From: Thermoplasmata archaeon
GTDB taxonomy: Archaea > Thermoplasmatota > Thermoplasmata > Lutacidiplasmatales > UBA184
Length of the DNA: 32,401 bases
Assembly (NCBI GenBank): GCA_030037815.1
Contig: JASHPZ010000045.1
Location: 1 to 32,401, forward strand
Reading direction: 5' to 3'
The position numbers and the translations under genes were made by a program. Shown here one piece after another: positions 9,565 to 26,742 of the stretch (its first letter is position 1; each line of letters opens with the position of its first letter). The notes under the pieces are model-generated. The model saw only the letters and a list, made by a program, of their open reading frames with translations, was not told where the DNA came from and did no database searches.

Positions 9565-9703
9565 GGCTGTCGTGGAAGGGAGGTCGGCGCGCTCATGATG
9601 GATTCGGAGCGGGTGCGTCGGGCCGTCCGGTCGGCGTTTTGTAGGGGTCCCGGCTCGGAAATCCGCGTCCCGGCGCCGGCCGGGCCGCTCGGGAGAGGAG
9701 AGT
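9565..9703. promoter_or_regulatory. Divergent intergenic region
   Basis: A 139-bp gap between mmsA and the mutase-like gene. On the minus strand CTACAAAACG (9644-9635) is the only AT-rich stretch and may be a promoter for mmsA with a leader of about 50 nt. On the plus side GGAGAGGAG (9691-9699) is a good Shine-Dalgarno sequence 4 bp before a TTG codon. Confidence 0.3.
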
Positions 9704-11071
9704 TTGGACGCCCGGTTTGAAGAGGCATACGCGGAGTACGAGCGACGCACCCCCCGTTCGCAGGCGCTCTTCGAACGCGCGCGGATCTGGAGCCCACTCG
9801 GGGTGCATTCGAACTACCGGTTCCTCGACCCGTACCCGTTCTACGTGAGCCACGCGAAGGGGGTCCACCTCTGGGATGCGGACGGGAACGACTACCTCGA
9901 CTTCAACATGGGATTCGGCTCGCTCCAGAGCGGGCACGCGCACCCTGCGCTCGTGGACGCGCTGCGTCGACAGATCGACGACGGGACGATCTACGGCTAC
10001 GAGTGGGAGCGCACGCCCGAGGTGGCCGAGCGGATCTGCCGCCGCTACGGGATGGCGAAGGTCCGGTTCAGCACGACCGGGCTCGAGGCGACCCACCACG
10101 CCACGCGATTCGCCCGGGCCTTCACGAAGAAGTCCTACGTGCTGAAATTCGAAGGCTCGTACCACGGCTCCCACGACACGTTGCTCGTCGGGGTGAAGCC
10201 ACGGATCCAGGTCGCGGGGGAGCCCCGGCATCCGAACTCGGCGCCCGCGTCGCCCGGAATCCTCCCGGAACTGACCGGGCGGACGCTCGTCGCGCCGTTC
10301 AACGACCTCGAAGCGACCCGGAAGATCGCGCGGGAGCACCGGGACGACCTGGCCGCCGTGATCGCCGAGCCTATTCCGATGAACATGGGGTTCATCCTGC
10401 CCGAGGAGGGGTTCTTTCCGGGCCTGCGCGAGTTGTGCGACGAACTCGGGGCCCTTCTCATCCTGGACGAGATCAAGACCGGGGCGAAATACCCGCAGGG
10501 CGGCGCCGGGCGGGTCGGGGTCCGTCCCGACCTCATCACGCTCGGAAAGTCGATCGCTTGCGGTGTGCCGCTCTCCGCGATCGCTGCGGGTCCGGGAATC
10601 TTGGACGAGGTCGGCCCGCGGAAGGTCGCCCACGCGGGCACCTACAACTCGAACCCGCTCGCGATGGCGGCGTGCATCGCCTCGCTCGACCACATCCTGA
10701 CGGAGGAGGCCCTGACGCGGTCCGCGCAGTTGAACGACCGCCTCGCGAAGGGCTACGCGGAAGTGTTCGAGGACGCCGGGGTCACCGCACACGTCGCAGC
10801 GGACGGGGTATCGGGAACGGTCTTCTTCGCGGACCACCCGGTCCGGAACTGGCGGGACTTCCTGACGGTCGACGGGGACCGCTCAATGCTCTACTACTAC
10901 CACTGCCTCAACCGGGGGCTCATCCCATCCGGCACGGGGCCCGACGAGCAGTGGACGATCTCGGTCCAGCATACCCCGACGGACGTCGACCGGCACCTCG
11001 AGATCCTCGGCACCGTCGCGGAACGACTCGCGGGGTCCCCGCAGAGCGGAGAGATCGAGGAGTCGGTGTAA
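9704..11071 (+). CDS. Glutamate-1-semialdehyde 2,1-aminomutase-like class III aminotransferase
   Basis: A 455-residue PLP enzyme closest in layout to the HemL-like branch: SPLGVHSNYRF near the start, KFEGSYHGSHD near 148-158, cofactor Asp in LLILDEIKTG (about 255), Schiff-base Lys in TLGKSIACGVPLSA (about 282), and AGTYNSNPLAMAA near 317. The canonical SGTEA is TTGLEA here. Many HemL-like proteins are ordinary aminotransferases or beta-amino-acid mutases, and no heme gene is nearby, so a catabolic role beside mmsA is as likely as tetrapyrrole synthesis. The start is TTG at 9704, supported by a strong GGAGAGGAG ribosome site just upstream and by the lack of a better in-frame start before the conserved region. 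Confidence 0.8.
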   Translation: MDARFEEAYAEYERRTPRSQALFERARIWSPLGVHSNYRFLDPYPFYVSHAKGVHLWDADGNDYLDFNMGFGSLQSGHAHPALVDALRRQIDDGTIYGYEWERTPEVAERICRRYGMAKVRFSTTGLEATHHATRFARAFTKKSYVLKFEGSYHGSHDTLLVGVKPRIQVAGEPRHPNSAPASPGILPELTGRTLVAPFNDLEATRKIAREHRDDLAAVIAEPIPMNMGFILPEEGFFPGLRELCDELGALLILDEIKTGAKYPQGGAGRVGVRPDLITLGKSIACGVPLSAIAAGPGILDEVGPRKVAHAGTYNSNPLAMAACIASLDHILTEEALTRSAQLNDRLAKGYAEVFEDAGVTAHVAADGVSGTVFFADHPVRNWRDFLTVDGDRSMLYYYHCLNRGLIPSGTGPDEQWTISVQHTPTDVDRHLEILGTVAERLAGSPQSGEIEESV

Positions 11072-11669: not shown

Positions 11670-12176
11670 GTGAGCGCCCCCCCCTCGGCCGGTGAAACCG
11701 CGAATCCCCCAACCTCGGCACGTCCTTCCCGACGCCGAACGTGGATTGTCGTCGGCGCGGTGGTCGTGGCCGCCGGCCTGGTGGTGGGAGTCTACGCCCT
11801 CATGCTGCCCCTACACCACTCGACCGCGACGAACTCGGAGATTCTGGAGCCCCAGGACACGTCGTACAGCATTCCCGCGGAACAGTTCAACGGGATCGCC
11901 TTCGACATCAGCACGACGTCGGTCGTCAATGGGACGTTCTACAACACCTACGGGATCACCCTCTACACGATGACCCCGGCGCAATTCGAAACCTTCTCGA
12001 AGACCGGCGTGGTCTCCGGCTACAACTGGACCTCGGGGCGCATCGCGAACAACACGATCACGAACCTGAACATCGAGGTGCCACCCGGCGCGTGGGAGCT
12101 CGCATTCGTGAACAGCAACCTCCTGGTCGCGACCTCGATCGGATTCTACTCGAACCTGACGCTCGCGCCTGCCTGA
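11670..12176 (+). CDS. Membrane-anchored extracellular protein of unknown function
   Basis: A 168-residue protein with a basic N-terminus (SRRRTW), one transmembrane anchor at about 25-47 and an extracytoplasmic domain of about 120 residues rich in Thr, Asn and aromatic residues. Sequons NGT, NWT, NNT and NLT suggest N-glycosylation on the outside. The C-terminal GAWELAFVNSN...IGFYSNL resembles a beta-sandwich repeated in surface proteins of related archaea, but I cannot name the family. The start is GTG at 11670. It ends 77 bp from the convergent pilin-PstS gene. Confidence 0.6.
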   Translation: MSAPPSAGETANPPTSARPSRRRTWIVVGAVVVAAGLVVGVYALMLPLHHSTATNSEILEPQDTSYSIPAEQFNGIAFDISTTSVVNGTFYNTYGITLYTMTPAQFETFSKTGVVSGYNWTSGRIANNTITNLNIEVPPGAWELAFVNSNLLVATSIGFYSNLTLAPA

Positions 12177-12253: not shown

Positions 12254-13684
12254 TTAGACCGAGTAGACGCTGATCTCCTGAGACTCCGACGCGAGGTTCA
12301 GGTTGTTCGCGGGGTCCATCACGAAGGTGACGAACTCCTGAGCAACACCGGACAGCGGCGTCAGGCTCACGATGTCGAAGGGGCGCCAGCCGAGGTACCC
12401 GACCGTGTAGTCCGCCGAGGTCGTCGGGGCCTTGATCCCGTTCGCAATCGTGCCCGAGCCGCCCGTCGTCGGCAGGATGCCGCCGTACCAGGTCGGGTTT
12501 GCGGTCGAACCGTCGCTCGCGGCGGTCTGACCCACCCCCGTGAAGGGGTAGAACGTCACGCCGGATCCGGACGCGCGCGCGAGCCCGTCGGAGGCGTAGC
12601 CGATCGCGGCCGAGTTCGAGGCGACCCCGCTGATGACTCCCGGGTTCCCGTTGGCCGTGTCGGTCGCGACGTACCCGCAGTCCGAGATGTAGTTCGAGCT
12701 GCCGCATCCCGTGAAGCCCGCCGAGCCCGGCGAGTTCAGCTGGGAGGCGGTCGCGAACTTCGTGTTGCTCGCCGCGTCAATCAGGCGAGCCTCGAACGAC
12801 TGGGTCGTACCGCTGGCGTCCGACCGAGCGTACGTGACAATCGGGACCGCGCCCGTAGCGCAAACCGTAAACCCACACGTCGAGGTCGTTCCGCTCGCGA
12901 CGGGGTAGCACTCGGTGTTCGCGAGTGCGCCCGTTCCGCAGGCCGCTCCAACCCCCGCACCCGCCGTGGTGGGCTGCTGGAGGGTCGTGCCAATCGTCAC
13001 GCCTTCGACGGCTGCCGGGATTTGGCTCCAGTCGATGACGCCGGCGGTCGGGATGGCCGCGGCCGCGACCAGGGTCGAGATGGTAACGCCATTCTCCGTC
13101 GTGCTCAGGAGAGTCGGGTTTCCGCCCGCGGCGTAGCTCGCGTCCTGGTAGACGAGGGCCAGCGTGTCGTAGTTGATGCTGAGCAGACCGTGGTTGTTCG
13201 TGGTCGAGGTGATCACATCGACCGCGTCGTAGGCGACCGTCGTGATGACCGTCGTGCTAGCATACTGGGCCGCGCAGTTGTAGGACGACTCAAGCGTAGG
13301 CACGTCGACCGGGAAGGAGGCCGCGCCCAAGTCGACCTGACCCGCGCAGACCGCGAGCATGCCCGCGCCGCTCCCGCCCTGGTTGTTGCTGATGACTACG
13401 TCCGAGTTGTTCTGTTGGAACTGGGTGACCGCGAGCGAGTCGAACGGGTACACGGACGTGCTCCCGCCGATCGTCAGCGTCGGTTCCGCATGCTGCGTCC
13501 CGATCCCGTTGGTGATGTTCCCCTGCCACACCACCAGCCAGAGATACAGGGCCGCCGCCGCCGCCACCGCGATGAGGATCAGGATCAGGGTCGCCACGAC
13601 GGGCGACACTGCCTTGTTCTCCCCGCGGAGCTTGCGACGATAGCTCCGGGCTCGTTCTCTCAACTTCACTCTCTTGTCGTTCAT
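12254..13684 (-). CDS. PstS-type phosphate-binding domain on an archaeal type IV pilin N-terminus
   Basis: A 476-residue fusion. Residues 1-24 are very basic and end in RGENKA; VSPVVATLILILIAVAAA (from 26) is a textbook archaeal pilin hydrophobic segment (PF07790-like), with expected prepilin-peptidase cleavage just before VSPVV. After residue 68 comes a PstS-like domain: LTIGGSTSVYPF (70-81), NQGGSGAGM (101-109), a phosphate-loop motif RSDASGTT (287-294), NSAAIGYAS (357-365), and the usual FVTFVMDP end. Eight cysteines after the anchor could form disulphides. Known solute-binding proteins of Sulfolobus also use class III signal peptides; assembly into a surface structure here is inference. 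ATG at 13684 starts the basic region; the longer frame to 14086 overlaps the ATPase gene. Neighbours are the pilus operon and, further on, the pst operon. Confidence 0.85.
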   Translation of the reverse strand: MNDKRVKLRERARSYRRKLRGENKAVSPVVATLILILIAVAAAAALYLWLVVWQGNITNGIGTQHAEPTLTIGGSTSVYPFDSLAVTQFQQNNSDVVISNNQGGSGAGMLAVCAGQVDLGAASFPVDVPTLESSYNCAAQYASTTVITTVAYDAVDVITSTTNNHGLLSINYDTLALVYQDASYAAGGNPTLLSTTENGVTISTLVAAAAIPTAGVIDWSQIPAAVEGVTIGTTLQQPTTAGAGVGAACGTGALANTECYPVASGTTSTCGFTVCATGAVPIVTYARSDASGTTQSFEARLIDAASNTKFATASQLNSPGSAGFTGCGSSNYISDCGYVATDTANGNPGVISGVASNSAAIGYASDGLARASGSGVTFYPFTGVGQTAASDGSTANPTWYGGILPTTGGSGTIANGIKAPTTSADYTVGYLGWRPFDIVSLTPLSGVAQEFVTFVMDPANNLNLASESQEISVYSV

Positions 13685-13718
13685 CTCTCTCTCGTTTCCC
13701 CCTGTTTCGGTTGTTGGG

Positions 13719-13759
13719 CGCTGCGGGGCGACTCGGGCCTCACCGGGCTCCCCGCAGCG
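13719..13759 (-). repeat. 10-bp inverted repeat in the leader of the pilin-PstS gene
   Basis: CGCTGCGGGG (13719-13728) and CCCCGCAGCG (13750-13759) are perfect inverted repeats around a 21-nt centre, ending 35 bp before the ATG of the pilin-PstS gene. If transcribed they form a stable stem in the 5' leader; if not, they may be an operator. Confidence 0.4.
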
Positions 13760-13870
13760 GTCGGACGAGGGAGGGCCGCGTTGATATTCCGGGCCAAACG
13801 AGAAGCCGTAGGCCGTCGGGGGACCCTGTAGGTTCGGCGCGTCGATAGATGCGATAGAGGTCGCCGGCGC

Positions 13871-13909
13871 CCTACGAAGCCTACGGTGTTTCCGTGCGGG
13901 GCCGTTAAC
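13871..13909 (+). promoter_or_regulatory. Promoter of the pilus assembly operon
   Basis: GTTAAC (13904-13909) lies 26-31 bp before the ATG at 13935, placed as a TATA-like element of a leaderless transcript. Upstream, CCTACGA (13871-13877) and CCTACGG (13880-13886) are a direct repeat with a 9-bp period, and TTTCCGTGCGGGGCCGTTAA closely matches the segment before the gene at 5238. A further pair, CGATAGA at 13843 and 13852, also repeats every 9 bp. The rest of the gap from 13685 holds the inverted repeat listed separately and nothing else recognised. Confidence 0.45.
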
Positions 13910-13934
13910 CCGCGCCGCCCGGTCGAGCGGCGCG

Positions 13935-15713
13935 ATGCGTTCCCCGGAGACGGTCGGCCGGGCGACCGCCTCGCCCCGGGACGCGCCGACTTCGAGCGCG
14001 ATCCGCGCGAAGGCGGTCGAGGCGAAGCCGAAGGACCTCGCGACGCTCAAGAAGGAGTCTCGAGCGCTCGAGGCCCGCCTCCTCAAGCGGGCGACCGTCC
14101 CCGAGAAGGTCCTGATTCAGGCCGAGCTCTCCTACATGCGCAACCAACTGATGGCGGACCGACGCCGGGTGGACGTGACGTACCCGGTGAATCCGCCGTT
14201 CGCGTTCGTCCAGATCCGCTTCCAGGCCCAGGACGGCGAACTCCTCTACCAGGTGCTCGAGCCCACGCTCCGCCCCGAGGAGCGGGACCAGATCACGAAG
14301 GTGCGGGAGAAGATGGAACTGATGATGTCCCAGGAGGAGATCCCGGTCTCGGACGGACACAGCCTCGAGGAGTCTCCGGCGCTCCACGAGTACCTCCGGC
14401 AGAAGTTCCTCACCGTCCTCGACCTCTACGACATTCCGGTCCCGGCGCGCCGCCAGCCGGTCCTGTTCTACTACCTCAAGCGGGAGTTCGTGGGGCTCGG
14501 CCGCACCGACGGGGTGCTGCGCGACCCGTTCCTCGAGGACATCAGTTGCCTCGGGCCCGGGGTCCCGCTGTTCGTGTTCCACCGCATCTTCGGGTCGATG
14601 CGGACGAACGTCCAGTACGACGGGGAGATCGAGCTGAACAAGTACATCTTCCGGCTCGCGCAGATCGCCGGCAAGCACATCTCGATCTACCAGCCGATCT
14701 TGGACGCGACGCTCCAGGACGGCAGCCGGATCAACCTCACGCTGGGAACCGAGGTCACGCGCAAGGGCTCGACGTTCAGCATCCGGAAGTTCTCGCACGA
14801 TCCGGTCTCGCCCATCGACCTCCTGCGGTTCGGGTCGGTCTCGGCGTTCGAGCTCGCGTACTTCTGGACCCTGGTCGAGAACCACCGTTCGCTCCTCATC
14901 TCGGGCGGGACGGCGGCTGGGAAGACGACGTTCCTGAACGCGATCTCGATGTTCATCCGGCCCGAGGACAAGATCGTCTCGATCGAGGACACCCCGGAGA
15001 TCCAAATCGACCACCAGAACTGGATCCAATCGGTCGCGCGCACGGGCTACGGAATGGGGGGCGGGGGGGCCTCCGGGGTCGGGGGTGCTTCCGGTATCTC
15101 GGCCCACGGCGCGAAGACCGCCGGCAGCGTCACGCTGTTCGACCTGCTGGTCGCGGCGCTCCGACAGCGCCCCGAGTACGTGATCGTGGGGGAGGTGCGG
15201 GGCGCCGAGTCGTTCACGCTGTTCCAGGCGATCTCGGTCGGCCACGCCTCGATGTCCACGATCCACGCGGGATCGATCGGAGAGCTCCTCCACCGCGTCG
15301 AGAACGAGCCGATGAACATCCCACGCGTGCTATTCCAGGCGCTCGACGCGGTCGCGTTCCCGGCCCAGGTAGCCGTGCAGAACGTGCGCGTGCGTCGCGT
15401 GACCGGCGTCACGGAGATCCTCGAGGTCGACCCCGCGACCAACGAGCTCCTGACGAACCCGATCTTCCGTTGGGAGCCGTCCAACGACTCGTTCACCTAC
15501 CTCGGACGGAGCTTCGTCCTAGAGCACATCGGCGATCGGACCGGCAAGAAGATCGACGAGCTCGAGACCGAAATGCGCCGGAAGGAGCGGTATCTCCAGT
15601 TGATGGACCAGCTCCACCTGACGTACTACCGGCACGTCAGCCGCGCGATCACCAACTACTACGTCGACCCCGCCGAGGCGCTCGCGGGCCTCGAGAAGCG
15701 GGTCGGCCGCTGA
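13935..15713 (+). CDS. Type IV pilus / Tad-like secretion ATPase
   Basis: A 592-residue cytoplasmic ATPase of the FlaI/GspE/TadA superfamily that powers pilin assembly. An N-terminal domain of about 300 residues precedes the RecA-like domain with Walker A GGTAAGKTT (324-332), the Asp-box SIEDTPEIQI (349-358), Walker B YVIVGEVRG with Glu about 420, and the His-box STIHAGS (441-447). A Gly/Ala/Ser-rich stretch at about 371-397 lies between Asp-box and Walker B and is longer than I expect for the family. The first 50 residues are basic and probably flexible. The ATG at 13935 fits a leaderless promoter. Two platform genes follow directly, so this is an assembly operon. No prepilin peptidase is in the window. 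Confidence 0.92.
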   Translation: MRSPETVGRATASPRDAPTSSAIRAKAVEAKPKDLATLKKESRALEARLLKRATVPEKVLIQAELSYMRNQLMADRRRVDVTYPVNPPFAFVQIRFQAQDGELLYQVLEPTLRPEERDQITKVREKMELMMSQEEIPVSDGHSLEESPALHEYLRQKFLTVLDLYDIPVPARRQPVLFYYLKREFVGLGRTDGVLRDPFLEDISCLGPGVPLFVFHRIFGSMRTNVQYDGEIELNKYIFRLAQIAGKHISIYQPILDATLQDGSRINLTLGTEVTRKGSTFSIRKFSHDPVSPIDLLRFGSVSAFELAYFWTLVENHRSLLISGGTAAGKTTFLNAISMFIRPEDKIVSIEDTPEIQIDHQNWIQSVARTGYGMGGGGASGVGGASGISAHGAKTAGSVTLFDLLVAALRQRPEYVIVGEVRGAESFTLFQAISVGHASMSTIHAGSIGELLHRVENEPMNIPRVLFQALDAVAFPAQVAVQNVRVRRVTGVTEILEVDPATNELLTNPIFRWEPSNDSFTYLGRSFVLEHIGDRTGKKIDELETEMRRKERYLQLMDQLHLTYYRHVSRAITNYYVDPAEALAGLEKRVGR

Positions 15714-15719: not shown

Positions 15720-16664
15720 ATGCCGTCGACCGCCGACGTGACGGCCGCGACCGGAGCCACCGCCGCGGCCAAGAAACCGGCCAAGCCGGATTTCACCTCG
15801 AGCTACCGCACGTTTTGCTACCGCCTGATCGGCGAGCGGTTCGACCGCGGCGACGGCTCGCCCGTGCTGGCCGAGCGGTTGAAGCAGGCCGGGTTGACCG
15901 CGACGCCCGGGATGCACTACGCGATGATCCTCGTCACGTCGCTCGTGTCGATGGGGGCCGTCGGCGGGTTCGCGGTGCTCCTGTTCTACGTCGGGCTGCA
16001 CAGCCCGATCTGGTACCTCTACGTCCTCCTCGTGGCGGGGATCACCGCCGGGTCCGTCGTCGCCGCGTTCCAGTTCCTGTTGAGCACGCGCATCGCCAAT
16101 CGAAAGGACGAGCTCGACCGGGAGCTCCCGTTCACCCTCAGCGAGCTCTCGGTGCTCGCGAGCACCGGAACCTCCCCGATCCAGCTCGTCCGGCGGATGG
16201 CCCAGCGCGACCACGACGCCGCGATGACGGGGGAATTCCGCCGGATCGTCTACAAGACCGACATCCAGGGGAAGGACCTGATCACGGCCCTCGCGGAGAC
16301 CGCGAAGGAGACCCCGTCCGCGTCGGTGCGCGAGTCGTTCTGGGACATCGCGAACATGATCCACCAAGGCGGAAACCTCGACGAGTACCTCCGCAACAAG
16401 TCGGACGACGTCCTGAAGCTCAAGCGGGTGGTCCAGAAGGAGTTCATCGAACGGCTCTCGACGTTCCTCGACATGTACGTGAGCCTCGTGCTCGTCGGCG
16501 TCCTGCTCCTCGCCGTCGCGGCGTTCCTCCTGAACGCGCTCGGGAGCACCGCGGCGGGCCTGAACGCGAACGAACTCCTCCTGTTGCTGACGTTCGGACT
16601 CGTCCCGCTCGCCGTCGGGATGACGATCATCATGATCTCGATCGCCTACGCGAGGGCCGAATGA
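15720..16664 (+). CDS. Pilus assembly platform protein, single T2SF domain (TadB-like)
   Basis: A 314-residue inner-membrane protein with the layout of TadB/FlaJ half-proteins: a Lys-rich start, two helices at about 66-90 and 98-118, a cytoplasmic T2SF four-helix region (about 135-250; LPFTLSELSVLASTGTSP is the recognisable core), and two more helices at about 254-275 and 283-305. It should anchor and be turned by the upstream ATPase. In most archaeal flagellum-type systems one FlaJ carries two such domains; here they are split over two genes as in Tad systems. GAGGA 4 bp before the ATG is a fair ribosome site. Its stop overlaps the next ATG (ATGA). Confidence 0.88.
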   Translation: MPSTADVTAATGATAAAKKPAKPDFTSSYRTFCYRLIGERFDRGDGSPVLAERLKQAGLTATPGMHYAMILVTSLVSMGAVGGFAVLLFYVGLHSPIWYLYVLLVAGITAGSVVAAFQFLLSTRIANRKDELDRELPFTLSELSVLASTGTSPIQLVRRMAQRDHDAAMTGEFRRIVYKTDIQGKDLITALAETAKETPSASVRESFWDIANMIHQGGNLDEYLRNKSDDVLKLKRVVQKEFIERLSTFLDMYVSLVLVGVLLLAVAAFLLNALGSTAAGLNANELLLLLTFGLVPLAVGMTIIMISIAYARAE

Positions 16665-18079
16665 AGGGCCCGTGGGGGGTCCTCCTCATCGGACTCCTCG
16701 TGTTCCTCTTCGTGATCGCCCCGCCAGCCCGTGCCGCGCGGCCGGATCTGGGACCGATCACCATCACGCCGACCAGCCCGCTCCCGAACTCGACGGTGAC
16801 GTCCCAGACTCCGACGATCTCCGCGTCGTTCTCCGACACCGTGAGCACCGTCAACCCGAACTTGGTCTTCCTCTACGTCGACGGGTTCAACGTCACGCCG
16901 ACCGATTCGGTGAACGCGACGCCGTTCTCGGTCACCTACCAGCCGCCGTCGATCCTCCCGTTGAACATCGGCGCCGACAACGCCACGGTGTACGTGACGG
17001 ACCTCGCCGGCAACACGGCGTCGTTCGAATGGAATTTCACGGTGAACCCCAACGCCACCTCGGCCCCCAACCCGTTCGGCGGGATCAAGCCGACGACGAT
17101 CCTCCTTTACCTCGGGATTGCCGGCGCGATCTCGGGCGCGGCCGTCGGCGGCTACATCCTCTTCCTGAAACAGACGACCCGCTTCACCTTCCGCCGGTAC
17201 TTCGCGACCCACCCGGTCAAGCGGCAGTACTTCGACCTCTACCTCCCGCTGGTCGCGGCGTTCATCTTCATCGTGGTGGCCCTCGACTGGGTTTACACGA
17301 CGCCGAACCCGCCCCCGTACGCCTTCGACCTCGTGTTCGTCGTCGCGGTGTTCATCGCCTTGACGGCGTTCGGCATCGACTCGCGACGCGAGATGCTCCG
17401 CATCCGAGCCTACGAACGGGCGTTCTCCCAGTTCCTGTTCGAAATGGCCGACGCGATGCGGGGCGGCATCGACCCCGCGAAGGCGATCGTCGAGCTGTCG
17501 AAGACCCAGTCGAACATCCTCGCGCGCCACCTGCGGATCGCCGCGGACGGGATCCGGATGGGGCGACCGTTCGACGTGGTGCTGCGCGACCTCGTCCTCC
17601 CGATGAAGAGCCACCTCATCTCGCGCTACGCCGGTCTGGTCGCCGACGCGACCGCGGCCGGCGGGGAGACCGCGACGGTCGTCTACCGTGCCGCCAAGGA
17701 CATGGACGACTTCGTCAAGATCGAGGAGGAGCGGGAGAAGCAACTGCTCCTGCCGGTCGCGGTCATCTACATCGCATTCGGCGTCCTGATGGCGGTCCTG
17801 TTCGCCCTGCTGTTCATCGCCCCCGACCTGGGTACCCTGGACGTCTCATTCCTCAACATCGGGAACCCGCTCGCGAACGGAGGGGCTGCCGGCGCCACCG
17901 TCCCCCATCTGACGTTCGCGACGCTCAAGGAGCGGTTCTTCGAACTGATGCTGATCAACGCGCTCGGCACCGGCGCGATCATCGGCGCCTTCACGGAAGG
18001 CCGCGCGCGGTACGGGATCCTCCACTCGCTCGGACTGGTCGCCGGGACCGCGATAGCATTCATTCTGATCTTCCCGTAA
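16661..18079 (+). CDS. Pilus platform protein with signal peptide, external Ig-like domain and T2SF domain (TadC-like)
   Basis: A 472-residue protein of unusual build. Residues 1-26 form a Sec-type signal peptide or anchor (GVLLIGLLVFLFVIAPPARA). Residues 30-130 look like an Ig-like beta-sandwich (PTISASFSD, YVTDLAGNTASF) with about six N-glycosylation sequons, so it is outside the cell. Then come helices at about 144-168, 194-213 and 220-238, a cytoplasmic T2SF domain (about 250-360; FEMADAMRGGIDPAKAI, TAAGGETATVV), and helices near 364-387, 428-445 and 452-471. It is the second platform subunit beside the TadB-like protein. ATG at 16661 overlaps the previous stop; longer frames upstream are shadows. 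Fusion of an exported Ig-like domain to a pilus platform is not standard. Confidence 0.85.
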   Translation: MKGPWGVLLIGLLVFLFVIAPPARAARPDLGPITITPTSPLPNSTVTSQTPTISASFSDTVSTVNPNLVFLYVDGFNVTPTDSVNATPFSVTYQPPSILPLNIGADNATVYVTDLAGNTASFEWNFTVNPNATSAPNPFGGIKPTTILLYLGIAGAISGAAVGGYILFLKQTTRFTFRRYFATHPVKRQYFDLYLPLVAAFIFIVVALDWVYTTPNPPPYAFDLVFVVAVFIALTAFGIDSRREMLRIRAYERAFSQFLFEMADAMRGGIDPAKAIVELSKTQSNILARHLRIAADGIRMGRPFDVVLRDLVLPMKSHLISRYAGLVADATAAGGETATVVYRAAKDMDDFVKIEEEREKQLLLPVAVIYIAFGVLMAVLFALLFIAPDLGTLDVSFLNIGNPLANGGAAGATVPHLTFATLKERFFELMLINALGTGAIIGAFTEGRARYGILHSLGLVAGTAIAFILIFP

Positions 18080-18113: not shown

Positions 18114-18974
18114 TTAGCCGAGGAACGTTAGCGGGGGCGCTTCCCCGAACAACCCGGCGCTGTTGACGACGTCCAAGCTCGCATTGTAGGTGTCCGTCGC
18201 GGTCAGGTTGGTCAGCTCGACTTGAGCCCCGTCCTCCGACCAGGTGTGGCCGTCGGTCGCGTTCGTCACCGTCCACTCCCATGCGACGATCGTCGCGTTG
18301 CCACCCTGCTGGAACGAGTGCGTGCCGTCGAGGACCGGCAGGTCGACCAGGACGCTGCCCGTGAACGACTGGATGAACGTGAGGTCGGAGAGCGCCGTGG
18401 GGGGCACGTAGACGAACGTGAACCCGCTCCCCCGCTGGGTCTGGAGGTTGATCGTGAGATAGGAGTTCGACGAAGGGGCGGAGGTCCAGGAGAGGAACGA
18501 GAACAGGGAATCCGACGCGTTCAGGTCGAGCGTGATCCGCACCTGCTCGAGCGCCGGGAGGAGGAGGGCGTCGCCGACGTCTCCGTCCAGGATCCCGACC
18601 GCCACCTCGGTGTTGTTCGACACCCAGGTCGCGTTGTAGCTGACGACCGGGTTGCCGTTGACCACGAGGTCCGTGAGCGACATCGACTGGATGTCGCCGC
18701 TCCCGATCGTGAGCGACATCGCGCCGTAGGTGGCGTTGGTGGCGCTGACCGGGGCGGTCTGGACCGAGAGGACGTGGATCGCCTCGAGGCTACGGTCGTG
18801 GCTCGCCGCCTCCTGCGTCTGGAGCTGCTGCTGGTACGACGCGATGAAGAACGAGAAGGCGGTCGCCGCCGCGACCACGATCAGGACGAGCATCAACGTC
18901 CCGACGATCTCCGCGAGCCCCCGCGAGCCCCGCCAACTCCGGCGCATCGGGGGCGAACTCGGGCGACGAGTCAT
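18114..18974 (-). CDS. Pilin-like surface protein with class III signal peptide and PKD-like domain
   Basis: A 286-residue protein. Residues 1-19 are basic (MRRSWRGSRG) and are followed by LAEIVGTLMLVLIVVAAA, a typical archaeal pilin hydrophobic segment with cleavage expected between Gly19 and Leu20 and a Glu at mature position 3. The rest is extracellular, beta-rich, with about eight sequons. Residues about 217-277 (SFQQGGNATIVAWEWTVTN...TYNASLDVVNSAG) resemble a PKD domain. It is much longer than a plain major pilin, so it may be a minor, adhesive or tip pilin. ATG at 18974 starts directly at the basic region; the frame extends upstream over the divergent gene. It is the nearest candidate substrate of the adjacent assembly operon along with the pilin-PstS fusion. 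Confidence 0.8.
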   Translation of the reverse strand: MTRRPSSPPMRRSWRGSRGLAEIVGTLMLVLIVVAAATAFSFFIASYQQQLQTQEAASHDRSLEAIHVLSVQTAPVSATNATYGAMSLTIGSGDIQSMSLTDLVVNGNPVVSYNATWVSNNTEVAVGILDGDVGDALLLPALEQVRITLDLNASDSLFSFLSWTSAPSSNSYLTINLQTQRGSGFTFVYVPPTALSDLTFIQSFTGSVLVDLPVLDGTHSFQQGGNATIVAWEWTVTNATDGHTWSEDGAQVELTNLTATDTYNASLDVVNSAGLFGEAPPLTFLG

Positions 18975-19067: not shown

Positions 19068-19703
19068 GTGGCCATGAACCTCCCCGTCGAGGTGCCGGGC
19101 CTCGACACGATCGTGCCGCAGATCGACGGGAGCCGCATCGTCGTCGTGGAAAGCGGCGCCGACTCGGCGAAGAGCTTCTTCGTCCGTCGGCTCGCGCTCA
19201 CCGCCCACCGGCTCGGCTGGCCCGTGACGTTCGTCATCTCCCGCGACCAGCAGGAACTCCGGGCCCAGCTCGGGACGGAGGGGGGCGAAGGTGTCCCCGC
19301 CGACGGCTGGCTTCAGGTCCACGAGCGCGACGCGGTCCAGGAACTCCAGGAGTACGGGGAGATGGGCGGATTGCTCGCCATCGATTCCTTCTCGTTCCTC
19401 ACCCTCAACCTCCCGGGGAGCGAGCTCGCGCTGATGCTCCGGGACCTGCGCCGGGCCGCCCGCTCGCGCGGCACGGTCGTTCTGCTCGCGACCGACCGCG
19501 GAATGTTCGGGAGCCAGGGGGAGGCGGTCGTGAACCACCTCGCGGACGGGCTGATCCAGTTCCACGCGCGCGAGGCCGCCGAGGGGATCTCGCGGTTCCT
19601 GCGCATCCCGAAGTGGACGGACGGCAAGTTCGTGGACCGAAACATCTACTACGAGTTCGACGGTCGGCGGCTCGCGATCGACCTGCGCAGCCGGGTGCTG
19701 TGA
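19068..19703 (+). CDS. FlaH/KaiC-like RecA-fold protein with degenerate P-loop
   Basis: A protein of 211 residues from GTG 19068, or 209 from ATG 19074; the ATG fits the TATA-like element better. The fold looks like the single RecA/KaiC domain of FlaH (ArlH), the ring protein that works with the FlaI motor. At the Walker A position it reads ESGADSAKS, one residue short and with Ala where Gly precedes the Lys, so ATP hydrolysis is doubtful. A Walker-B-like GGLLAIDSFSF (about 98-108) is kept. No stop or frameshift breaks it, so this is divergence and not decay. It is followed by the AAA ATPase after 19 bp. Role as a regulator of pilus assembly is inferred from position and fold. Confidence 0.65.
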   Translation: MAMNLPVEVPGLDTIVPQIDGSRIVVVESGADSAKSFFVRRLALTAHRLGWPVTFVISRDQQELRAQLGTEGGEGVPADGWLQVHERDAVQELQEYGEMGGLLAIDSFSFLTLNLPGSELALMLRDLRRAARSRGTVVLLATDRGMFGSQGEAVVNHLADGLIQFHAREAAEGISRFLRIPKWTDGKFVDRNIYYEFDGRRLAIDLRSRVL

Positions 19704-19722: not shown

Positions 19723-20781
19723 ATGCCGACCGGTACGTACGAGCGCTACGGGCTCACCGGGAATCCGTTCCGAGACCTCGCGAGCGAGAGCCTCGACAAC
19801 GTCTCGATCTTCCACGTGAACCAGGAGGTCGACGACTCGCTCCGCACCATCCGGGAGGAGGTGCTCGACCGCGAGAATCGCGCGGTCGTCGCGGTCATCG
19901 GGGAGCTCGGCGCCGGCAAGACCGAGCGGCTGCTGGTCACCCTCGGGGAGGCGCGCGAGCGGAAGGCGTTCTGCGTCTACTTTGACGTCACCACGCGGAC
20001 GACCGCGGTCCTGCGGGGGATCGCGGGCGAGTTCCAGAAGACCGCGTCCAAAGCGAAGCTCGTCAAGCTGTTCGGCTCGCCGCCGTGGCTGCGGCCGCTG
20101 ACGGCGTTCGCGAAGTCAAAGGACGACCGATACGACCCGAAGACGGTCGGTCGGACGTTCGCGGCCGCCCTGAACGGAACGGCCCCGTCGTTCCTGATGC
20201 TCAACGACCTCCACAACCTGATCGAGTCGAAGGAGGTCGACGCCTTCAGTCGCGTCCTCCAGGAGCTCACCGACACGATCAAGCCCGGCGTCCTCGTGAT
20301 GTTCACCTGCTACTCGAGCTACCTCGCGTGGCTGCAGGTGCACTATCCTGCGCTGGCTTCGCGGATCAACCGGACCTTCCTTCTGAAGGGGCTCTCCGAC
20401 GACGAGGCGGCGCTGATCCTCGCGAAGAAGCTCCTGGTGAAACGACTCGTCGAGGACCTGGACCCGATCTACCCGTTCGACCGGGACGCGGTCCATGCCA
20501 TGAACGGCGCCGCGCACGGAAATCCGCGCCGCCTGCTCGAGCTCGCAGACCTCGCGGTCGAGTACGGCATCGCGCACCGTTCGTATCGCGTCGACGCGGA
20601 GGTGGTCCGGGCGATCCTCGACCAGCGCCAGGCAGCGGACGTGGCGTCCGAGGTCCTCCGACGACCCGTGGCCGCCCCATCCCCCTCCGCAGCCAAATCG
20701 CCGGCGGCGCCCCCCGCCGATCCCAAACGCGGGGCCACTTCCGCCTCGCCGTCCCCCCCGGCCTGGGCTGAGTCGAAGTAA
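19723..20781 (+). CDS. AAA ATPase, ExeA/GspA-like
   Basis: A 352-residue ATPase. The opening YERYGLTGNPFRDLA resembles the start of ExeA/GspA-type and related AAA+ proteins; Walker A is GELGAGKT (60-67), a Walker-B-like FLMLNDLHNL has Asp about 162, and SRINRTFLLKGLSDDEA near 215-231 is the usual arginine-finger/lid junction. The C-terminal 50 residues are Pro/Ala/Ser-rich and disordered. In bacteria GspA helps place secretion machinery in the envelope; here the same kind of role for the pilus is inferred from the neighbourhood. GGGGGAG before the ATG at 19723 is a good ribosome site. It ends 3 bp from the convergent AbrB-PhoU gene. Confidence 0.75.
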   Translation: MPTGTYERYGLTGNPFRDLASESLDNVSIFHVNQEVDDSLRTIREEVLDRENRAVVAVIGELGAGKTERLLVTLGEARERKAFCVYFDVTTRTTAVLRGIAGEFQKTASKAKLVKLFGSPPWLRPLTAFAKSKDDRYDPKTVGRTFAAALNGTAPSFLMLNDLHNLIESKEVDAFSRVLQELTDTIKPGVLVMFTCYSSYLAWLQVHYPALASRINRTFLLKGLSDDEAALILAKKLLVKRLVEDLDPIYPFDRDAVHAMNGAAHGNPRRLLELADLAVEYGIAHRSYRVDAEVVRAILDQRQAADVASEVLRRPVAAPSPSAAKSPAAPPADPKRGATSASPSPPAWAESK

Positions 20782-20784
20782 CGC

Positions 20785-21801
20785 CTACGAGTTCTCCGCG
20801 GTCGTCAGCACGGCGAGGTCGATCGTCTCTTCCGCGATCTCCGCCGCGTACGCCGCGGTCCGCCCGAGGCTGTCGACTAAGGCGCCGAGCGCCAGGAGCT
20901 CCTCCCCCTTGCGGGTCGACACGCGGCTGGAGAGCGCGTCCACGAGGCGCTGGTGGTCCCCCCGCTGGTCGATGGCCAAGTTCGCGCCCTCGATGTCGCG
21001 AGTCACCAGCGAGTTGAACGCCCGGTCGAGGATGCCCACCGCCGACGCGCGCGTCTCATCGATCTCCTTCCAGAATTTCGCGTCCAGCCCTTTCGAACCG
21101 GCCAGGGTCGCGTAGGTCGACGCGATCCGCTGCGCGTGAAAGCCGATCCGTTCGAGCAACTTGGCGATCAGGCGGTGCCCGTGGATCACCGCGGCCGTCG
21201 ATCGGTCTCCCGCGGGGAGCGGCGCCGAGTGGGCGAGGTGGTACTGCTTCGCGACCATCCAGTACAGCCGGTTCACGTCCTGACCGCGAAGGCTCACGTC
21301 GTGGGCCAGGTTCGCGTCCGAGGACTTCAGGGAGAGGATCGCGTCCTCGAGCATCGTGCGGACGGTCAAATGCATCCGCCGCAGGCACTTCTCGGAACTC
21401 AGTTCGGTCGGGTCCGAGAGGTCCTGAACGACGATCGAATTCCGAGTCTCCTCGATGACCTCGGGACCGATGACGAGTCGGCAGAATTCGCGCGCGACCC
21501 GTCGCACGAACGGCCCGCGGTCCGGCGCGAACCGGATGTCGATCAGTCCGAACCCCGTGACGTACGCCCCGATCAGCTTGCGGAGAAGGTGGTCGCGCGA
21601 CTCTTCCCCTTTTTCGAGGAAGACCTTCCGACGGACCTGGGGGCGCTCGCCGGAGCGGGGGCGGACCGAGACCGAGCCGTCGGACTCCGTGTCGACGAAC
21701 AGCGTGTCCCCGGCCTTGAGCCCGGCGTTGGTGACCCAGCGCTTGGGAAGCGAGACGAGGAAGGTCGACTTCCCCGCCAACTGTAGCTTACGACCCTCCA
21801 T
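20785..21801 (-). CDS. AbrB-PhoU fusion: phosphate uptake regulator with DNA-binding domain
   Basis: A 338-residue protein. Residues 4-50 are an AbrB/SpoVT swapped-hairpin DNA-binding domain (KLQLAGKSTFLVSLPKRWV, then GLKAGDTLFV). Residues about 100-330 are helical with the PhoU plan of two three-helix bundles (RMHLTVRTMLEDAI; HRLIAKLLERIGFHAQRI). Such fusions are known in archaea next to pst genes and are thought to be transcription factors that sense phosphate-transporter state. The ATG at 21801 gives a complete AbrB domain. Its own upstream region is unusually AT-rich, with palindromes that match sequence before pstS, which suggests autoregulation. Confidence 0.85.
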   Translation of the reverse strand: MEGRKLQLAGKSTFLVSLPKRWVTNAGLKAGDTLFVDTESDGSVSVRPRSGERPQVRRKVFLEKGEESRDHLLRKLIGAYVTGFGLIDIRFAPDRGPFVRRVAREFCRLVIGPEVIEETRNSIVVQDLSDPTELSSEKCLRRMHLTVRTMLEDAILSLKSSDANLAHDVSLRGQDVNRLYWMVAKQYHLAHSAPLPAGDRSTAAVIHGHRLIAKLLERIGFHAQRIASTYATLAGSKGLDAKFWKEIDETRASAVGILDRAFNSLVTRDIEGANLAIDQRGDHQRLVDALSSRVSTRKGEELLALGALVDSLGRTAAYAAEIAEETIDLAVLTTAENS

Positions 21802-22052: not shown

Positions 22053-22760
22053 TCAGGCCCTCGTCCGCGACGCGGGCGGTCGCGGCGGGAAGTACTCGCT
22101 CCGCCGCTCGCCCGTGATGGCGTAGACGGCCTTCTCCGCGATCTTGCAAGCGTTATCGGCGACGCGTTCGAGGTGGCGGGCGCCCAGGAGCATGTACGCG
22201 AGGCGGTCCGCGGCCGGACCTCCGGCCCGCATCTGTTCGATCAACTGTCGCTCGGTCGAGTGGTACAAATCGTCCACCGCGTCGTCCAGGGCGAACACGC
22301 CCTTGGCCTCGGCCGCATCTCCGTGGACAAACGCGTGCATGGCCTGCCGAACCATCGCCCGGGCCCGCTCGTCCATCTGACGGAGCAACGTGGGGATGTC
22401 GTCGTTCGCGAGCGGGGTGGTCGCAACGTTGCGAGCCAAGTCGAACCCGAGGCGTCCGACCCGGTCGACGCAATTCGCGACCTTCAGGAGCGCCTCGATG
22501 GTCCGTAGGTCGCCGCCTTCCGGCTGCAGGATCGCGACCAAGCGGATCGCCTCGCCTTCGATCGCGACGTCGTAGCGGTCGAGGGGGGCGTCCCGGGCGA
22601 CCACCGAGTCGCGCAGCTCGGTGTCCGCGGTGAGGAGTGCGCGGGTCCCGTCGGCGACCATCCCGACCGCCAGGTCGGCCATCTCGGCCACGTGCTCCTT
22701 CAGCCGCCCAATCTCCCGGGTGTGCTCGTCCCCTGGACTCTCCACGTTGCTTGACGTCAT
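22053..22760 (-). CDS. phoU: Phosphate signalling protein PhoU
   Basis: A 235-residue all-helical protein with two PhoU repeats (EIGRLKEHVAEMADLAVGMV near 16-35; LARNVATTP near 107; AYMLLGARHLERVADNACKIAEKAVY near 191-216, the typical E(R)xADxxxxIAE motif). PhoU binds metal and links the Pst transporter to gene control; in bacteria it damps phosphate uptake. The ATG at 22760 overlaps the pstB stop (ATGA), so it is the last gene of the pst operon. A longer frame up to 23390 is the shadow of pstB. Unlike the other PhoU protein in the window it has no DNA-binding domain. Confidence 0.92.
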   Translation of the reverse strand: MTSSNVESPGDEHTREIGRLKEHVAEMADLAVGMVADGTRALLTADTELRDSVVARDAPLDRYDVAIEGEAIRLVAILQPEGGDLRTIEALLKVANCVDRVGRLGFDLARNVATTPLANDDIPTLLRQMDERARAMVRQAMHAFVHGDAAEAKGVFALDDAVDDLYHSTERQLIEQMRAGGPAADRLAYMLLGARHLERVADNACKIAEKAVYAITGERRSEYFPPRPPASRTRA

Positions 22761-23539
22761 GCGAATCGCCCCGTGATGAACTGCTCGGTGAGGGGGTCCT
22801 TCGGCCGCTCCAGGACGTCGGCCGTCGGTCCGACCTCGATCAAGCGACCCGAGTGAAGGAACGCGACGCGGTCGGAGACGCGCGCCGCCTGACTGACGTT
22901 GTGCGTGACCAACACCAGCACGATGTCCTGCTTGAGGCGTTCCATCGTCGACTCCACCCGCTGGGTCGCGGCCGGGTCGAGGGCCGAGGTCGGTTCGTCG
23001 AGCAGGAGGACCCGCGGATTCACCGCCAGCGCCCGCGCGATACAGAGGCGCTGCTGCTGTCCGCCGGACAGCGACAGCGCGGACCGGTCGAGGTCCTGCT
23101 TGACCTCGTCCCATAAACCGGCTCGGACGAGCGCCTCGGTGACCGCCCGATCGACGACCTCCTCGGGCTCGTGAATGAGGCGCAGGCCGAACGCCGCGTT
23201 CTCGAAGATCGACATCGGGAAGACCGTCGGGCGCTGGAACACCATACCGATCCGACGGCGGACGAGCACCGGATTCACGCCCGGGCCGTAGATGTTCTGC
23301 CCCACGTAGTCGACATGCCCCTCCACCCGGAGTCCGGGGGTGAGCTCCACCATCCGATTCAGCGTCCGCACGAAGGTCGTCTTCCCGCATCCGGAAGGCC
23401 CGACGACCGCCGTGAGACTGCGCGGCGGAAAGTCGAGCGTGACCCCGTCCAGAATTTTCCGCTTCGCCGCGGTGACCGTCAGCCCCCGTACCGCCAGGAC
23501 CGGTCCGTTTGCCGATGGGGAGGATGCCTCGCCGCTCAT
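22757..23539 (-). CDS. pstB: Phosphate ABC transporter ATP-binding protein
   Basis: A 260-residue ABC ATPase energising phosphate import. Walker A GPSGCGKT (47-54) with the PstB-like TTFVRTLNRM after it, Q-loop at FQRPTVFPMSIFENAAFG, signature LSGGQQQR (157-164), Walker B LLLDEPTSALDP (178-189) and switch His in VTHN (213). The order pstS-pstC-pstA-pstB-phoU is the classical one. The ATG at 23539 overlaps the pstA stop by 4 bp. Confidence 0.95.
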   Translation of the reverse strand: MSGEASSPSANGPVLAVRGLTVTAAKRKILDGVTLDFPPRSLTAVVGPSGCGKTTFVRTLNRMVELTPGLRVEGHVDYVGQNIYGPGVNPVLVRRRIGMVFQRPTVFPMSIFENAAFGLRLIHEPEEVVDRAVTEALVRAGLWDEVKQDLDRSALSLSGGQQQRLCIARALAVNPRVLLLDEPTSALDPAATQRVESTMERLKQDIVLVLVTHNVSQAARVSDRVAFLHSGRLIEVGPTADVLERPKDPLTEQFITGRFA

Positions 23540-24438
23540 GCGTAGAGCCCCTCGAGCCGCTTGCGGTACCGGCTCGAGATCAACCGGACCACGATGTTAA
23601 GGGCGATGACCACGACCATGATGAGGAACGCCGCCTGGAACGCAAGCACCTGCAGGCCGGACGATTGCGACTGCGCGAAGTTCTCCCAGATCAGCTGCGT
23701 TAGGAACGTGACCGGCGAATAGACGGTCTGCGGGACGAGGACGCCGGGTTGTGTCGTGAGCACGATCGGCGCCGTCTCGCCGACCCCGATGGCCATCGCG
23801 AGGAACACCCCGGTCAGGATCTGCGGGAACGCGATCGGCGTGCCGACCTTCAGGATGTATTGGCTCGGTTTCGCACCGGAGCCGAGCGCGGCCTCCCGAA
23901 TGTGGCGTGGCACGCTCGTGAACGCGAGGTCTGCGGTCCGGAACACGTACGGGGTCATGAAGAACGAGAGGGTGAACACGCCCGCGATGTAGGAGAGCCC
24001 CCAGCCGAAGTAGAGCACGAACGTGAAGTAGCCAAAGTACCCGATGATGATGGACGGCGTCCCCACGAGGAGGTTCGCCGACATCCGAACCCAGCCGGCG
24101 ACGCGGTCCGACAGGAATTCGGCGGTTGCGATCCCTCCGAATAGCCCGAATAGAACGGCGAGCAGCGTCGCGAGGAGCATCACTTCGAACGTTCCGATGA
24201 TCGGCACGCCGAGCGCGTCGGTCCGGTACGGGCTCGTGCTCGTGAGCACCGTCCAGCTCAAGGTGGGAAGGGCGCGGGCCGACACGTAGTAGACGAGCGA
24301 GAGAATCGGGAGGATCGCGACCAGGAAGAGGAGCGGAAGGAGCCAGCCGATGACCCGGTCGAACCCGAGCCTCCATCGGGTGCGCGCCGAGCCGTCAAAC
24401 CGGATGTTGTCGACGCTCGGCACGGACGCGTTCTCCAT
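23536..24438 (-). CDS. pstA: Phosphate ABC transporter permease PstA
   Basis: A 300-residue membrane permease with about six helices. The EAA loop for contact with PstB reads REAALGSGAKPSQYILKVG (about 187-205). GETAPIVLT near 228 is typical of PstA. It pairs with PstC to form the phosphate channel. GAGGT 4-5 bp before the ATG is a ribosome site; the gene starts 7 bp after pstC. Confidence 0.92.
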   Translation of the reverse strand: MENASVPSVDNIRFDGSARTRWRLGFDRVIGWLLPLLFLVAILPILSLVYYVSARALPTLSWTVLTSTSPYRTDALGVPIIGTFEVMLLATLLAVLFGLFGGIATAEFLSDRVAGWVRMSANLLVGTPSIIIGYFGYFTFVLYFGWGLSYIAGVFTLSFFMTPYVFRTADLAFTSVPRHIREAALGSGAKPSQYILKVGTPIAFPQILTGVFLAMAIGVGETAPIVLTTQPGVLVPQTVYSPVTFLTQLIWENFAQSQSSGLQVLAFQAAFLIMVVVIALNIVVRLISSRYRKRLEGLYA

Positions 24439-24445: not shown

Positions 24446-25435
24446 TCAGAGCCCCTGGACCTGTTCCGTGTAGAGCGACGCGATCAGCCGGCGGCCCAGC
24501 ACGTTCACCACGAGCGAGATCCCGAGCAGCACGAGCGCCATCTCCGCCAGCGCGGCGAGGATCTGAGGGCTCCCCGTGCCGCCGATTGCCGAGTCGAGGA
24601 GCTCGAACATCTGGGCGGCTACGGTGTTGCCCGTGTCGTAGACGTTCTTCGGGAGATTGGTCGCCGCCCCCAGGACCATCGCGACGGCCACGGTCTCGCC
24701 GAACGCGCGGCCGAATCCCAGAAACGCCGCGCTGAAGATGCCGCGGCGTCCGTAGGGGATTGCGACGCGCCGTACGACCTCCCACCGCGTCGCCCCGAGT
24801 GCGAGGCCGCTCTCCCACAGGTCCCGCGGCACCGACCGCAGGGCGTCGCGGATGAGGAGGGTGGTGATCGGGAGCGCCATCAGCGTGAGGATAAAGATCG
24901 AGATCAGCACGCCGAGCCCGTCCGTTCGGGTCGGCGGACCAAAACCCGGGATGAACGCGACGTGCATGACGAGCCAAGGCTCGAGCACGGACCCGAAGAC
25001 CGGAGCGACGATGACGAACGCCCAGATCCCGTAGACTACGCTCGGAATCCCCGCGAGCAGGTCGACGAACGGGTCGAGAATCCGGGTGAGGTACCCCGGG
25101 AGGTACGTCGCGGAAGCGACTGCGATTCCGATTCCGATGAGCATCGAGAATACGAGCGCCGGGACCGCGGTGAGGAACGAGCCGATCAAGAACACCATGA
25201 TTCCCCACTGGTCCGTCGGCGGATCCCAGTGGAATCCGAAGAACCCCCAGCCGAAGTTGGTGAACGAGGTCGCCCCGACCAACGCCACGAGAATCCCAAT
25301 CAGAATGGCCGCGGGCGCGAGAGCGGGCAGCGCGGCGACCCACCGGAGCCAGCGCATGGAGGCGGTGGACCGGGCGGAGGCGGGGGCAGGAAGGGGTTGC
25401 CGGTCGGTGGTAGGAGCCGCGACCGGCGTCGTCAC
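24446..25435 (-). CDS. pstC: Phosphate ABC transporter permease PstC
   Basis: The partner permease, about six helices, with the EAA loop LALGATRWEVVRRVAIPYG and GRAFGETVAVAM typical of PstC. The start is uncertain. The frame is open to 25597, which would overlap pstS. GTG at 25435 gives 329 residues with a Pro/Ala-rich, probably disordered, N-terminus; ATG at 25357 gives 303 residues beginning MRWLRWV right at the first helix. Neither has a clear ribosome site. The GTG leaves 29 bp after the pstS stop. Confidence 0.85.
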   Translation of the reverse strand: MTTPVAAPTTDRQPLPAPASARSTASMRWLRWVAALPALAPAAILIGILVALVGATSFTNFGWGFFGFHWDPPTDQWGIMVFLIGSFLTAVPALVFSMLIGIGIAVASATYLPGYLTRILDPFVDLLAGIPSVVYGIWAFVIVAPVFGSVLEPWLVMHVAFIPGFGPPTRTDGLGVLISIFILTLMALPITTLLIRDALRSVPRDLWESGLALGATRWEVVRRVAIPYGRRGIFSAAFLGFGRAFGETVAVAMVLGAATNLPKNVYDTGNTVAAQMFELLDSAIGGTGSPQILAALAEMALVLLGISLVVNVLGRRLIASLYTEQVQGL

Positions 25436-25464
25436 GAGGTGGTTCCCCGTCGGTCCCTTCCTTC

Positions 25465-26742
25465 CTAGGCCTGGACCGAGGCCAGCTCCTGCATGTCGTA
25501 CCCGATGACCTGGGGGGTCAGCGGGATGAAGTTCACCAGGTCCAAGTACGACGAGGGCACGCCGCTCGACGCGAAGTTGCCGTACGAGATCGCCCACTCC
25601 AGGAACTGGACCGTCGCGTGGAGGGCCGACGACGTCACGGTGTTCCCGGTGGGAGCGGTCTTGATCAGCGTGTACTCGAGGTTGACGATCGGGTAGGGCG
25701 TCGTCCCGACCGTCGGGACCGTCCCGCCCTCACCGAGGGTCAGGTTGATCGCACCGCGGGGGCTGCCGCCGAGGATCAGGCTGACCGCCAGCTGGTACTG
25801 GGAGTACTGGAGGTGCGTCAATCCGAGGTTCGCGTCCGCCGAGATGTTCGACTGCGACGGAAGGATGTAGTCCGCCGCGTGGGCCGGGTACGAGCCGTTC
25901 TGTAGCGTGTTGTTGTCGCCCACCGCCGCGTAGGTCAGGCCCGTGGCCGTCGACTCGTAGCTGATCCCGACGTAGCCGATCGAGTTCGTCTGCTTCTGGA
26001 GCGCCGCGACGACCCCGGAGTTCCCGGTAGCACCCGTCCACGGCGAGCCGGAGAGCGCGCTCGTCGAGTAGCCGTACGTCCAGCCCGACCACGACATGTA
26101 ACAGAGCGACGTGAACAGGAACGTGTCACCGCTCGAGTCCGACCGCTTGATGGGGTAGATCGTCTGGCTCGACAGCGCGTTCAACTCCGACTGCACGTTG
26201 GCCGGTTGCGCCTGAAGGATCAGGGGGTTGTTCCAGGACGTGATCGCGCCGCCGTAGATCATCGCAAGGATCGAGCCGTTCAGGTTGAGGTGTTGGGAGA
26301 CGCCCGGGAGGTTGTAGTAGATCAACTGCGCGGAGATCGCGACCGGGAGGTTGATCAGGTTGGTCTGGCTCGCGTTCGCGAGGTACCCGTCGCTCGCCCC
26401 GATGTTAACGAGGCCCGTCTGCGCGTAGCTCTGACCCGTTCCGCTGCCCGTCGACGCGGGGCTCAGGACCACGTTGGGGTTGTAGGCCGTGTAGTTCGGT
26501 CCCCACGACTTCATCAGGGGGTAGAGCAAGCTCGAGCCCGTCTCCGTCAGCTGGATCTGGTTCGAGCTCGAGGTCGTCTTGTTCAGGCTCGTGCCCAGAA
26601 CGTATCCGGCCCCGATCCCGACCAAGAGGAGCACGATCGCGATCGCGACCGCCACCCCCATGCCCATCTGCCCGGACCGCTTTCGGGTCGGACTCGAAAG
26701 CTGGTCACTCGTCGTTGTTCCGCTGGGGTTCTGTCCGCTCAT
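25465..26742 (-). CDS. pstS: Phosphate ABC transporter substrate-binding protein, membrane anchored
   Basis: A 425-residue phosphate-binding protein. After a polar basic N-terminus (TRKRSGQ) one hydrophobic segment (about 26-50) acts as an uncleaved anchor or signal peptide. The binding domain has LTETGSSLLYPL (65-76), a Ser/Gly-rich ASTGSGTGQS loop, the RSDSSGDT phosphate motif, and NSIGYVGISYES. It heads the pst operon and delivers phosphate to PstCA. Its anchor does not match the archaeal pilin consensus as well as that of the second PstS-like protein at 12254-13684, so the two proteins probably sit differently on the cell. The ATG at 26742 has a leader of about 80 nt if the TATAAAT at 26856-26850 is the promoter. 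Confidence 0.92.
   Translation of the reverse strand: MSGQNPSGTTTSDQLSSPTRKRSGQMGMGVAVAIAIVLLLVGIGAGYVLGTSLNKTTSSSNQIQLTETGSSLLYPLMKSWGPNYTAYNPNVVLSPASTGSGTGQSYAQTGLVNIGASDGYLANASQTNLINLPVAISAQLIYYNLPGVSQHLNLNGSILAMIYGGAITSWNNPLILQAQPANVQSELNALSSQTIYPIKRSDSSGDTFLFTSLCYMSWSGWTYGYSTSALSGSPWTGATGNSGVVAALQKQTNSIGYVGISYESTATGLTYAAVGDNNTLQNGSYPAHAADYILPSQSNISADANLGLTHLQYSQYQLAVSLILGGSPRGAINLTLGEGGTVPTVGTTPYPIVNLEYTLIKTAPTGNTVTSSALHATVQFLEWAISYGNFASSGVPSSYLDLVNFIPLTPQVIGYDMQELASVQA

Follow-up and report, generated by a model that had tools for sequence, protein, structure and literature searches.

The closest described system is the bindosome of Sulfolobus, in which solute-binding proteins (GlcS, AraS) carrying a class III signal are processed by PibD and have an ATPase and a platform protein of their own (PMC4187195; PMC4371748). 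According to these reviews, bindosomes have been described experimentally for Sulfolobus sugars only; predictions of class III binding proteins reach further, but an appendage formed by a bindosome has yet to be observed. An earlier note on the DNA investigated here had regarded a phosphate version encoded beside a pilus assembly operon as undescribed, and indeed no published phosphate bindosome or class III PstS was found in the literature searched, which was mostly open-access, so that an earlier prediction elsewhere is possible.

Here, a window of 32,401 nucleotides from a Thermoplasmata archaeon, meaning the whole stretch of DNA analysed, was compared with these systems and with related genomes. 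The gene termed pPstS probably encodes a phosphate-binding prepilin and, with its neighbours, the phosphate equivalent of the bindosome of Sulfolobus, for which the assembly machine was independently recruited. As in the bindosome, a binding protein with a class III signal is accompanied by its own ATPase and platform genes; unlike in the bindosome, where the binding domain is for sugars, the domain of pPstS belongs to the phosphate family. The features of the locus are collected in Table 1.

Table 1. Features of the pPstS locus, with positions in the window.
Feature	Position	Strand	Basis or remark
Small membrane protein, unknown family	11670..12176	(+)	recurrent pPstS neighbour
pPstS (class III PstS)	12254..13684	(-)	476 aa plus stop; ATG at 13684
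PstS-type phosphate-binding domain, residues 65-476	12257..13492	(-)	PF12849, profile, model
Hydrophobic pilin helix, residues 26-58, VSPVVATLILILIAVAAAAALYLWLVVWQGNIT	13511..13609	(-)	AF2 model, conservation
Class III signal peptide, predicted, residues 1-25	13610..13684	(-)	basic, ends ENKA; TIGR02537
Divergent intergenic region pPstS/FlaI	13685..13934	(.)	250 bp
Conserved partly palindromic element CACGGAAACACCGTAGGCTTCGTAG	13872..13896	(-)	candidate operator
FlaI/PilB-like assembly ATPase	13935..15713	(+)	PF00437 113 bits; PDB 2oap, FlaI 4ii7
FlaJ-like platform protein, first half	15720..16664	(+)	PF00482
FlaJ-like platform protein, second half	16664..18079	(+)	PF00482
Second pilin-like protein, MRRSWRGSRG/LAEIVGTLML...	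18114..18947	(-)	TIGR02537 17.2 bits, below cut-off 20; synteny-conserved
KaiC/ArlH-like protein, weak	19068..19703	(+)	PF06745 25.4 bits vs 26.6 cut-off
AAA ATPase, same cluster	19723..20781	(+)	PF13401
AbrB-PhoU fusion regulator, far cluster end	20785..21801	(-)	PF01895 + PF04014; synteny
PhoU	22053..22742	(-)	TIGR02135 131.7 bits, cut-off 130.25
PstB	22757..23539	(-)	TIGR00972 E 3e-98
PstA	23536..24438	(-)	TIGR00974 E 6e-46
PstC, start codon uncertain, ORF overlaps pstS	24446..25597	(-)	TIGR02138 221.7 bits, cut-off 196
Ordinary PstS (P0002), plain N-terminal TM anchor	25465..26742	(-)	TIGR00975 E 4e-48

The N-terminus of pPstS had been read in the earlier note as an archaeal pilin segment, to be checked with PF07790. 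That family gave no match at E ≤ 0.1, and the pilin call, which was borne out, therefore stands on TIGR02537 (residues 23-50, inside the stretch 20-55 where a pilin match had been predicted; 32.4 bits, cut-off 20), on a match to the Ignicoccus hospitalis adhesion filament Iho670 and on conservation. When the single protein was searched against the PDB by phmmer, both Iho670 (5kyh; residues 26-87, E 6e-5) and PstS structures were matched. The mature residue 1 of Iho670 pairs with residue 26 of pPstS in this alignment, which together with TIGR02537 places the predicted PibD cleavage at KA25/V26, and in nearly all relatives V26 is preceded by K, R, E or Q followed by A or G. The likeness to Iho670 is confined to the mature N-terminal helix; the head domain of the filament protein is unrelated and without a substrate-binding domain. 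Thus, pPstS displays the N-terminal domain, cleavage motif and subsequent hydrophobic helix of a class III prepilin, and the peptidase needed for class III secretion has a PibD candidate in the genome (G000:C12; PF01478, 31.3 bits vs a cut-off of 26.5). The mean pairwise identity of the helix among relatives is approximately 93%, compared to 46% for the binding domain. In 25 homologous segments the helix is 94% identical in amino acids, and since the shared four-fold sites are just 50% identical, the high identity at the protein level reflects purifying selection and not chance.

The remainder of the protein is of the PstS kind, as the earlier note had also stated from the motif RSDASGTT (residues 287-294). 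PF12849 matched residues 65-381 with 43.1 bits (cut-off 27), and TIGR02136, a PstS-family model, matched at E 8e-17 with 61 bits, under its strict cut-off of 206. The predicted fold and the phosphate motif by which PstS is recognised (GS[ST], GGS, R-x-D-x-S-G-T) are both present. Positions S75-T76, GGS103-105, S123 and R287-x-D289-x-S291-G292-T293 are conserved in the family and also kept in ordinary thermoplasmatal PstS, and in the alignment S75, G103, G104, S123, R287, G292 and T293 are nearly invariant. Variation at D118 was considered as the loss of a ligand aspartate and dropped as an objection, because D56 of the E. coli protein aligns, as read by eye, with S123, which does not vary among the class III copies. 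The motif has drifted in some relatives, to RLDPGGTE in L045 and RQEVSGTT in L063, and is lost in L068.

An AF2 model built with 33 sequences reached a mean pLDDT of 86.2 and a pTM of 0.80 (a run with 8 sequences reached pLDDT 46 and was set aside), with a long N-terminal helix at 28-58 followed by a binding domain mostly above 90 pLDDT. Among Foldseek matches to the PDB, the first 44 were phosphate binders or their close relatives, with TM scores by target length of up to 0.83 to 4gd5/4lat, and the best were all phosphate binders of the PstS and DING kinds. A family profile of 33 rows, 22 of them class III copies and the others related PstS, picked up both Iho670 and, at E 5e-37, PstS 4q8r. 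In predicted fold and binding motifs pPstS is like the PstS of the TIGR02136/PF12849 kind (C. perfringens 4gd5/4q8r), from which it differs by the class III N-terminus in place of a lipobox or Sec signal and by long lineage-specific insertions. These bear the conserved cysteines C137, C270, C275, C327 and C336, which are missing from ordinary PstS and may form disulfides. In L047:13497-15179 and L071:37-1950, additional insertions of very large size separate the two lobes of the domain. At the level of sequence comparison, the presence in pPstS of a genuine archaeal class III N-terminus fused to a PstS-family domain is confirmed; that phosphate would be the ligand we infer by homology.

Strong matches to the binding domain were detected in 14 of 300 genomes of the class, all from a single family of Thermoplasmata (f1), and a scan of GTDB gave 22 loci with homologues; archaeal phyla outside Thermoplasmatota were covered by this pattern scan alone, which finds close relatives. 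A pilin N-terminus was present in 19 of the 22 loci, one of the 19 being clipped by the contig start, so the fusion recurs in related genomes, where the earlier note had proposed to look for it. Seven of the source MAGs bear AcS names, several of which (AcS1-45, AcS1-3, AcS11-62, AcS4-93, AcS5-107 and AcS5-116) recur in a published table of forest-soil Lutacidiplasmatales genomes (PMC9287336). The fusion is conserved in Lutacidiplasmatales, Thermoplasmata of acid soil. The earlier note would have rejected it on finding homologues whose N-terminus is an ordinary Sec or lipoprotein signal, which was the case only in part: the fusion held in most copies, lipoproteins prevail among the ordinary PstS of other Thermoplasmata, and in three copies from Lutacidiplasmatales (L059, L065, L068) the pilin segment is replaced by a TM N-terminus and a further domain. 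In L041/L065 (G034:C64), L043/L068 (G012:C130) and L059, the PstS-like domain is joined to a plain TM and Ig-like repeats. One class III PstS (L071, JASIAO010000353.1) comes from a contig of 3 kb assigned to a MAG of Acidobacteriaceae; transfer to bacteria was considered, and mis-binning is likelier given so short a contig with a thermoplasmatal relative.

The pilus assembly operon which the earlier note had placed next to pPstS encodes an ATPase and a platform of the families found in the archaellum motor (FlaI/ArlI, FlaJ/ArlJ), and the weak KaiC-like gene recalls ArlH, although its product had no ArlH match in the PDB. The archaellum FlaI model gave 379 of 550 bits, below its cut-off, and no archaellin was found in the window cluster. 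As Lutacidiplasmatales are reported to be without archaellum genes (PMC9287336), the operon is not easily a motility motor, and an archaellum was considered as its identity and rejected. Neither, by the models applied, is it the Bas system. No orthologues of BasE (156 of 1000 bits) or BasF (32 of 1300) were detected in the window cluster, the ATPase being nearer to archaellum FlaI (379 bits) than to BasE (156 bits), and no small pilins of the BasABC kind were found there, the one weak pilin-like gene lying at 18114-18947. Unlike in Bas, the platform protein is split in two, and the gene for the binding protein diverges from those of the machine and has links to pst/PhoU. By its predicted parts, the pPstS system would be like the bindosome in function, yet by model scores it is not the Bas system. 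The second FlaJ half carries an N-terminal secreted Ig-like stretch, an unusual fusion.

A class III gene divergent from a FlaI-FlaJ-FlaJ operon was found in about 20 distinct loci, in most of which the operon continues with the pilin-like gene, the KaiC-like gene, the AAA ATPase and the AbrB-PhoU regulator. Among 61 relatives, FlaI of the clade linked to pPstS (69-83% identity) was present in nine genomes at the threshold and as a partial gene in G015, and all other secretion ATPases were at most 47% identical. Class III pPstS was present in 11 of these genomes and occurred together with the clade FlaI in nine (Fisher p ~3e-8, ignoring shared ancestry); the exceptions were G035 and G008, which had pPstS only (in G008 where a contig begins), and G011, with FlaI only and at a contig start. 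G005 harboured two modules of pPstS and FlaI (C146 and C107). At the count used, 17 class III copies were beside FlaI and 3 (L056, L075, L050) not directly so, and the copies without a pilin segment were never directly beside FlaI (pilin presence vs FlaI adjacency, p 0.011).

This pairing bears on a rival explanation, that the processed pilin helix is a membrane anchor only, tethering single PstS molecules while the machine encoded next to it builds a pilus of its own. The ordinary PstS P0002 of the same window, in which no pilin motif was found, does have a plain N-terminal TM, and binding proteins of Thermoproteus tenax are mostly N-terminally anchored (PMC3189178), but a near-invariant helix under purifying selection is more than a tether needs. 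Three class III copies located away from FlaI would fit an anchor as well; they are set against the tight co-occurrence with one FlaI clade and the missing pilin segment in L059, L065 and L068. We consider an anchor alone unlikely.

Two further kinds of gene accompany pPstS. The small protein encoded on its 3′ side in the window has a single TM and no Pfam match over the cut-off. In many relatives it recurs next to either pPstS or the AbrB-PhoU gene, and L070/L085 and L086 have a related protein between pPstS and FlaI. Further out, positions 94-11071 hold a catabolic cluster, as far as names given by reading go, of an amidohydrolase and three each of aldehyde dehydrogenases and class III aminotransferases, parts of which recur next to pPstS in L042, L050 and L061.

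The window contains a complete pst/PhoU set just past the pilus operon, on the side opposite to pPstS, and two PhoU proteins in all. This order is common in part to G012 and L064. A different arrangement was seen in L057, L058, L060 and L074, where PstS, PstC, PstA and in part PstB follow directly 3′ of pPstS on the same strand, as far as contigs and recognition go; in L057 PstS stands alone since the contig ends there. Scores above the NCBIfam cut-offs were obtained for PstS and PstC in L058 and L074, for PstS in L057 and for PstA in L074. Genes for PstC/PstA/PstB, with which a PstS-family protein is expected to be encoded, thus occur downstream in L058, L060 and L074 and nearby in the window, and both arrangements agree in indicating a probable link with phosphate.

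The same linkage weighs on an adhesive pilus whose pPstS domain would grip phosphate-bearing surfaces such as minerals or polymers and feed no importer. The class III N-terminus does resemble that of the Ignicoccus filament, and Pseudomonas is reported to have adhesive appendages rich in PstS (PMC7922408); given the operon linkage with PstSCA(B) and PhoU genes and the retained binding motif, we find such a pilus very improbable. That another oxyanion is bound, with display as proposed, might be read from the long insertions in the binding region and the motif drift in some relatives, but is hardly credible when the best sequence and fold matches are all phosphate binders and Pst and PhoU genes lie next door.

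The partly palindromic element in the divergent region is located about 200 bp before pPstS and could be made out in the corresponding position in each of the 17 loci aligned, with a chance expectation of 0.02 matches per window. It could be an operator, perhaps for both directions, and the AbrB-PhoU protein, in which an AbrB (MazE-like) DNA-binding domain is fused to PhoU and which is kept at the cluster end, is a candidate for its regulator. A perfect copy of the element core, CCGTAGATTCCGTAG, occurs at 18986-19000 in the intergenic region of the pilin-like and KaiC-like genes and is not clearly conserved among relatives. One operator for the whole cluster, as the presence of CCGTAGnnTCCGTAG also at 18986-19000 might imply, was not upheld across loci.

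A pilin-PstS fusion adjoining both a pilus machine and a phosphate importer suggests a surface structure for phosphate scavenging, and the working of the phosphate-binding prepilin may be depicted as follows: PibD would cleave the precursor after KA25, and the FlaI/FlaJ machine would extract or assemble the subunits through the pilin helix. The subunits would then be displayed outside the membrane as a pseudo-pilus, a filament or an S-layer-associated array, where they would capture phosphate and hand it over to PstSCAB. The further proposal that FlaI/FlaJ build a surface filament or lattice mainly out of pPstS, a phosphate-scavenging pilus in which each subunit is a Venus-flytrap binding protein, is made tentatively and is in our judgement somewhat improbable; a binding domain that by far exceeds the usual pilin head in size counts against assembly.

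If the proposed role is true, pilus machines were turned to nutrient capture repeatedly in archaea, and the pPstS modules would add to the sugar bindosome of Sulfolobus a second case, directed at phosphate, from a distant lineage whose assembly ATPase is different and whose gene module is conserved. They provide defined genes for asking whether binding proteins polymerise, and for Lutacidiplasmatales the system would be a plausible way of scavenging phosphate in acid soil.
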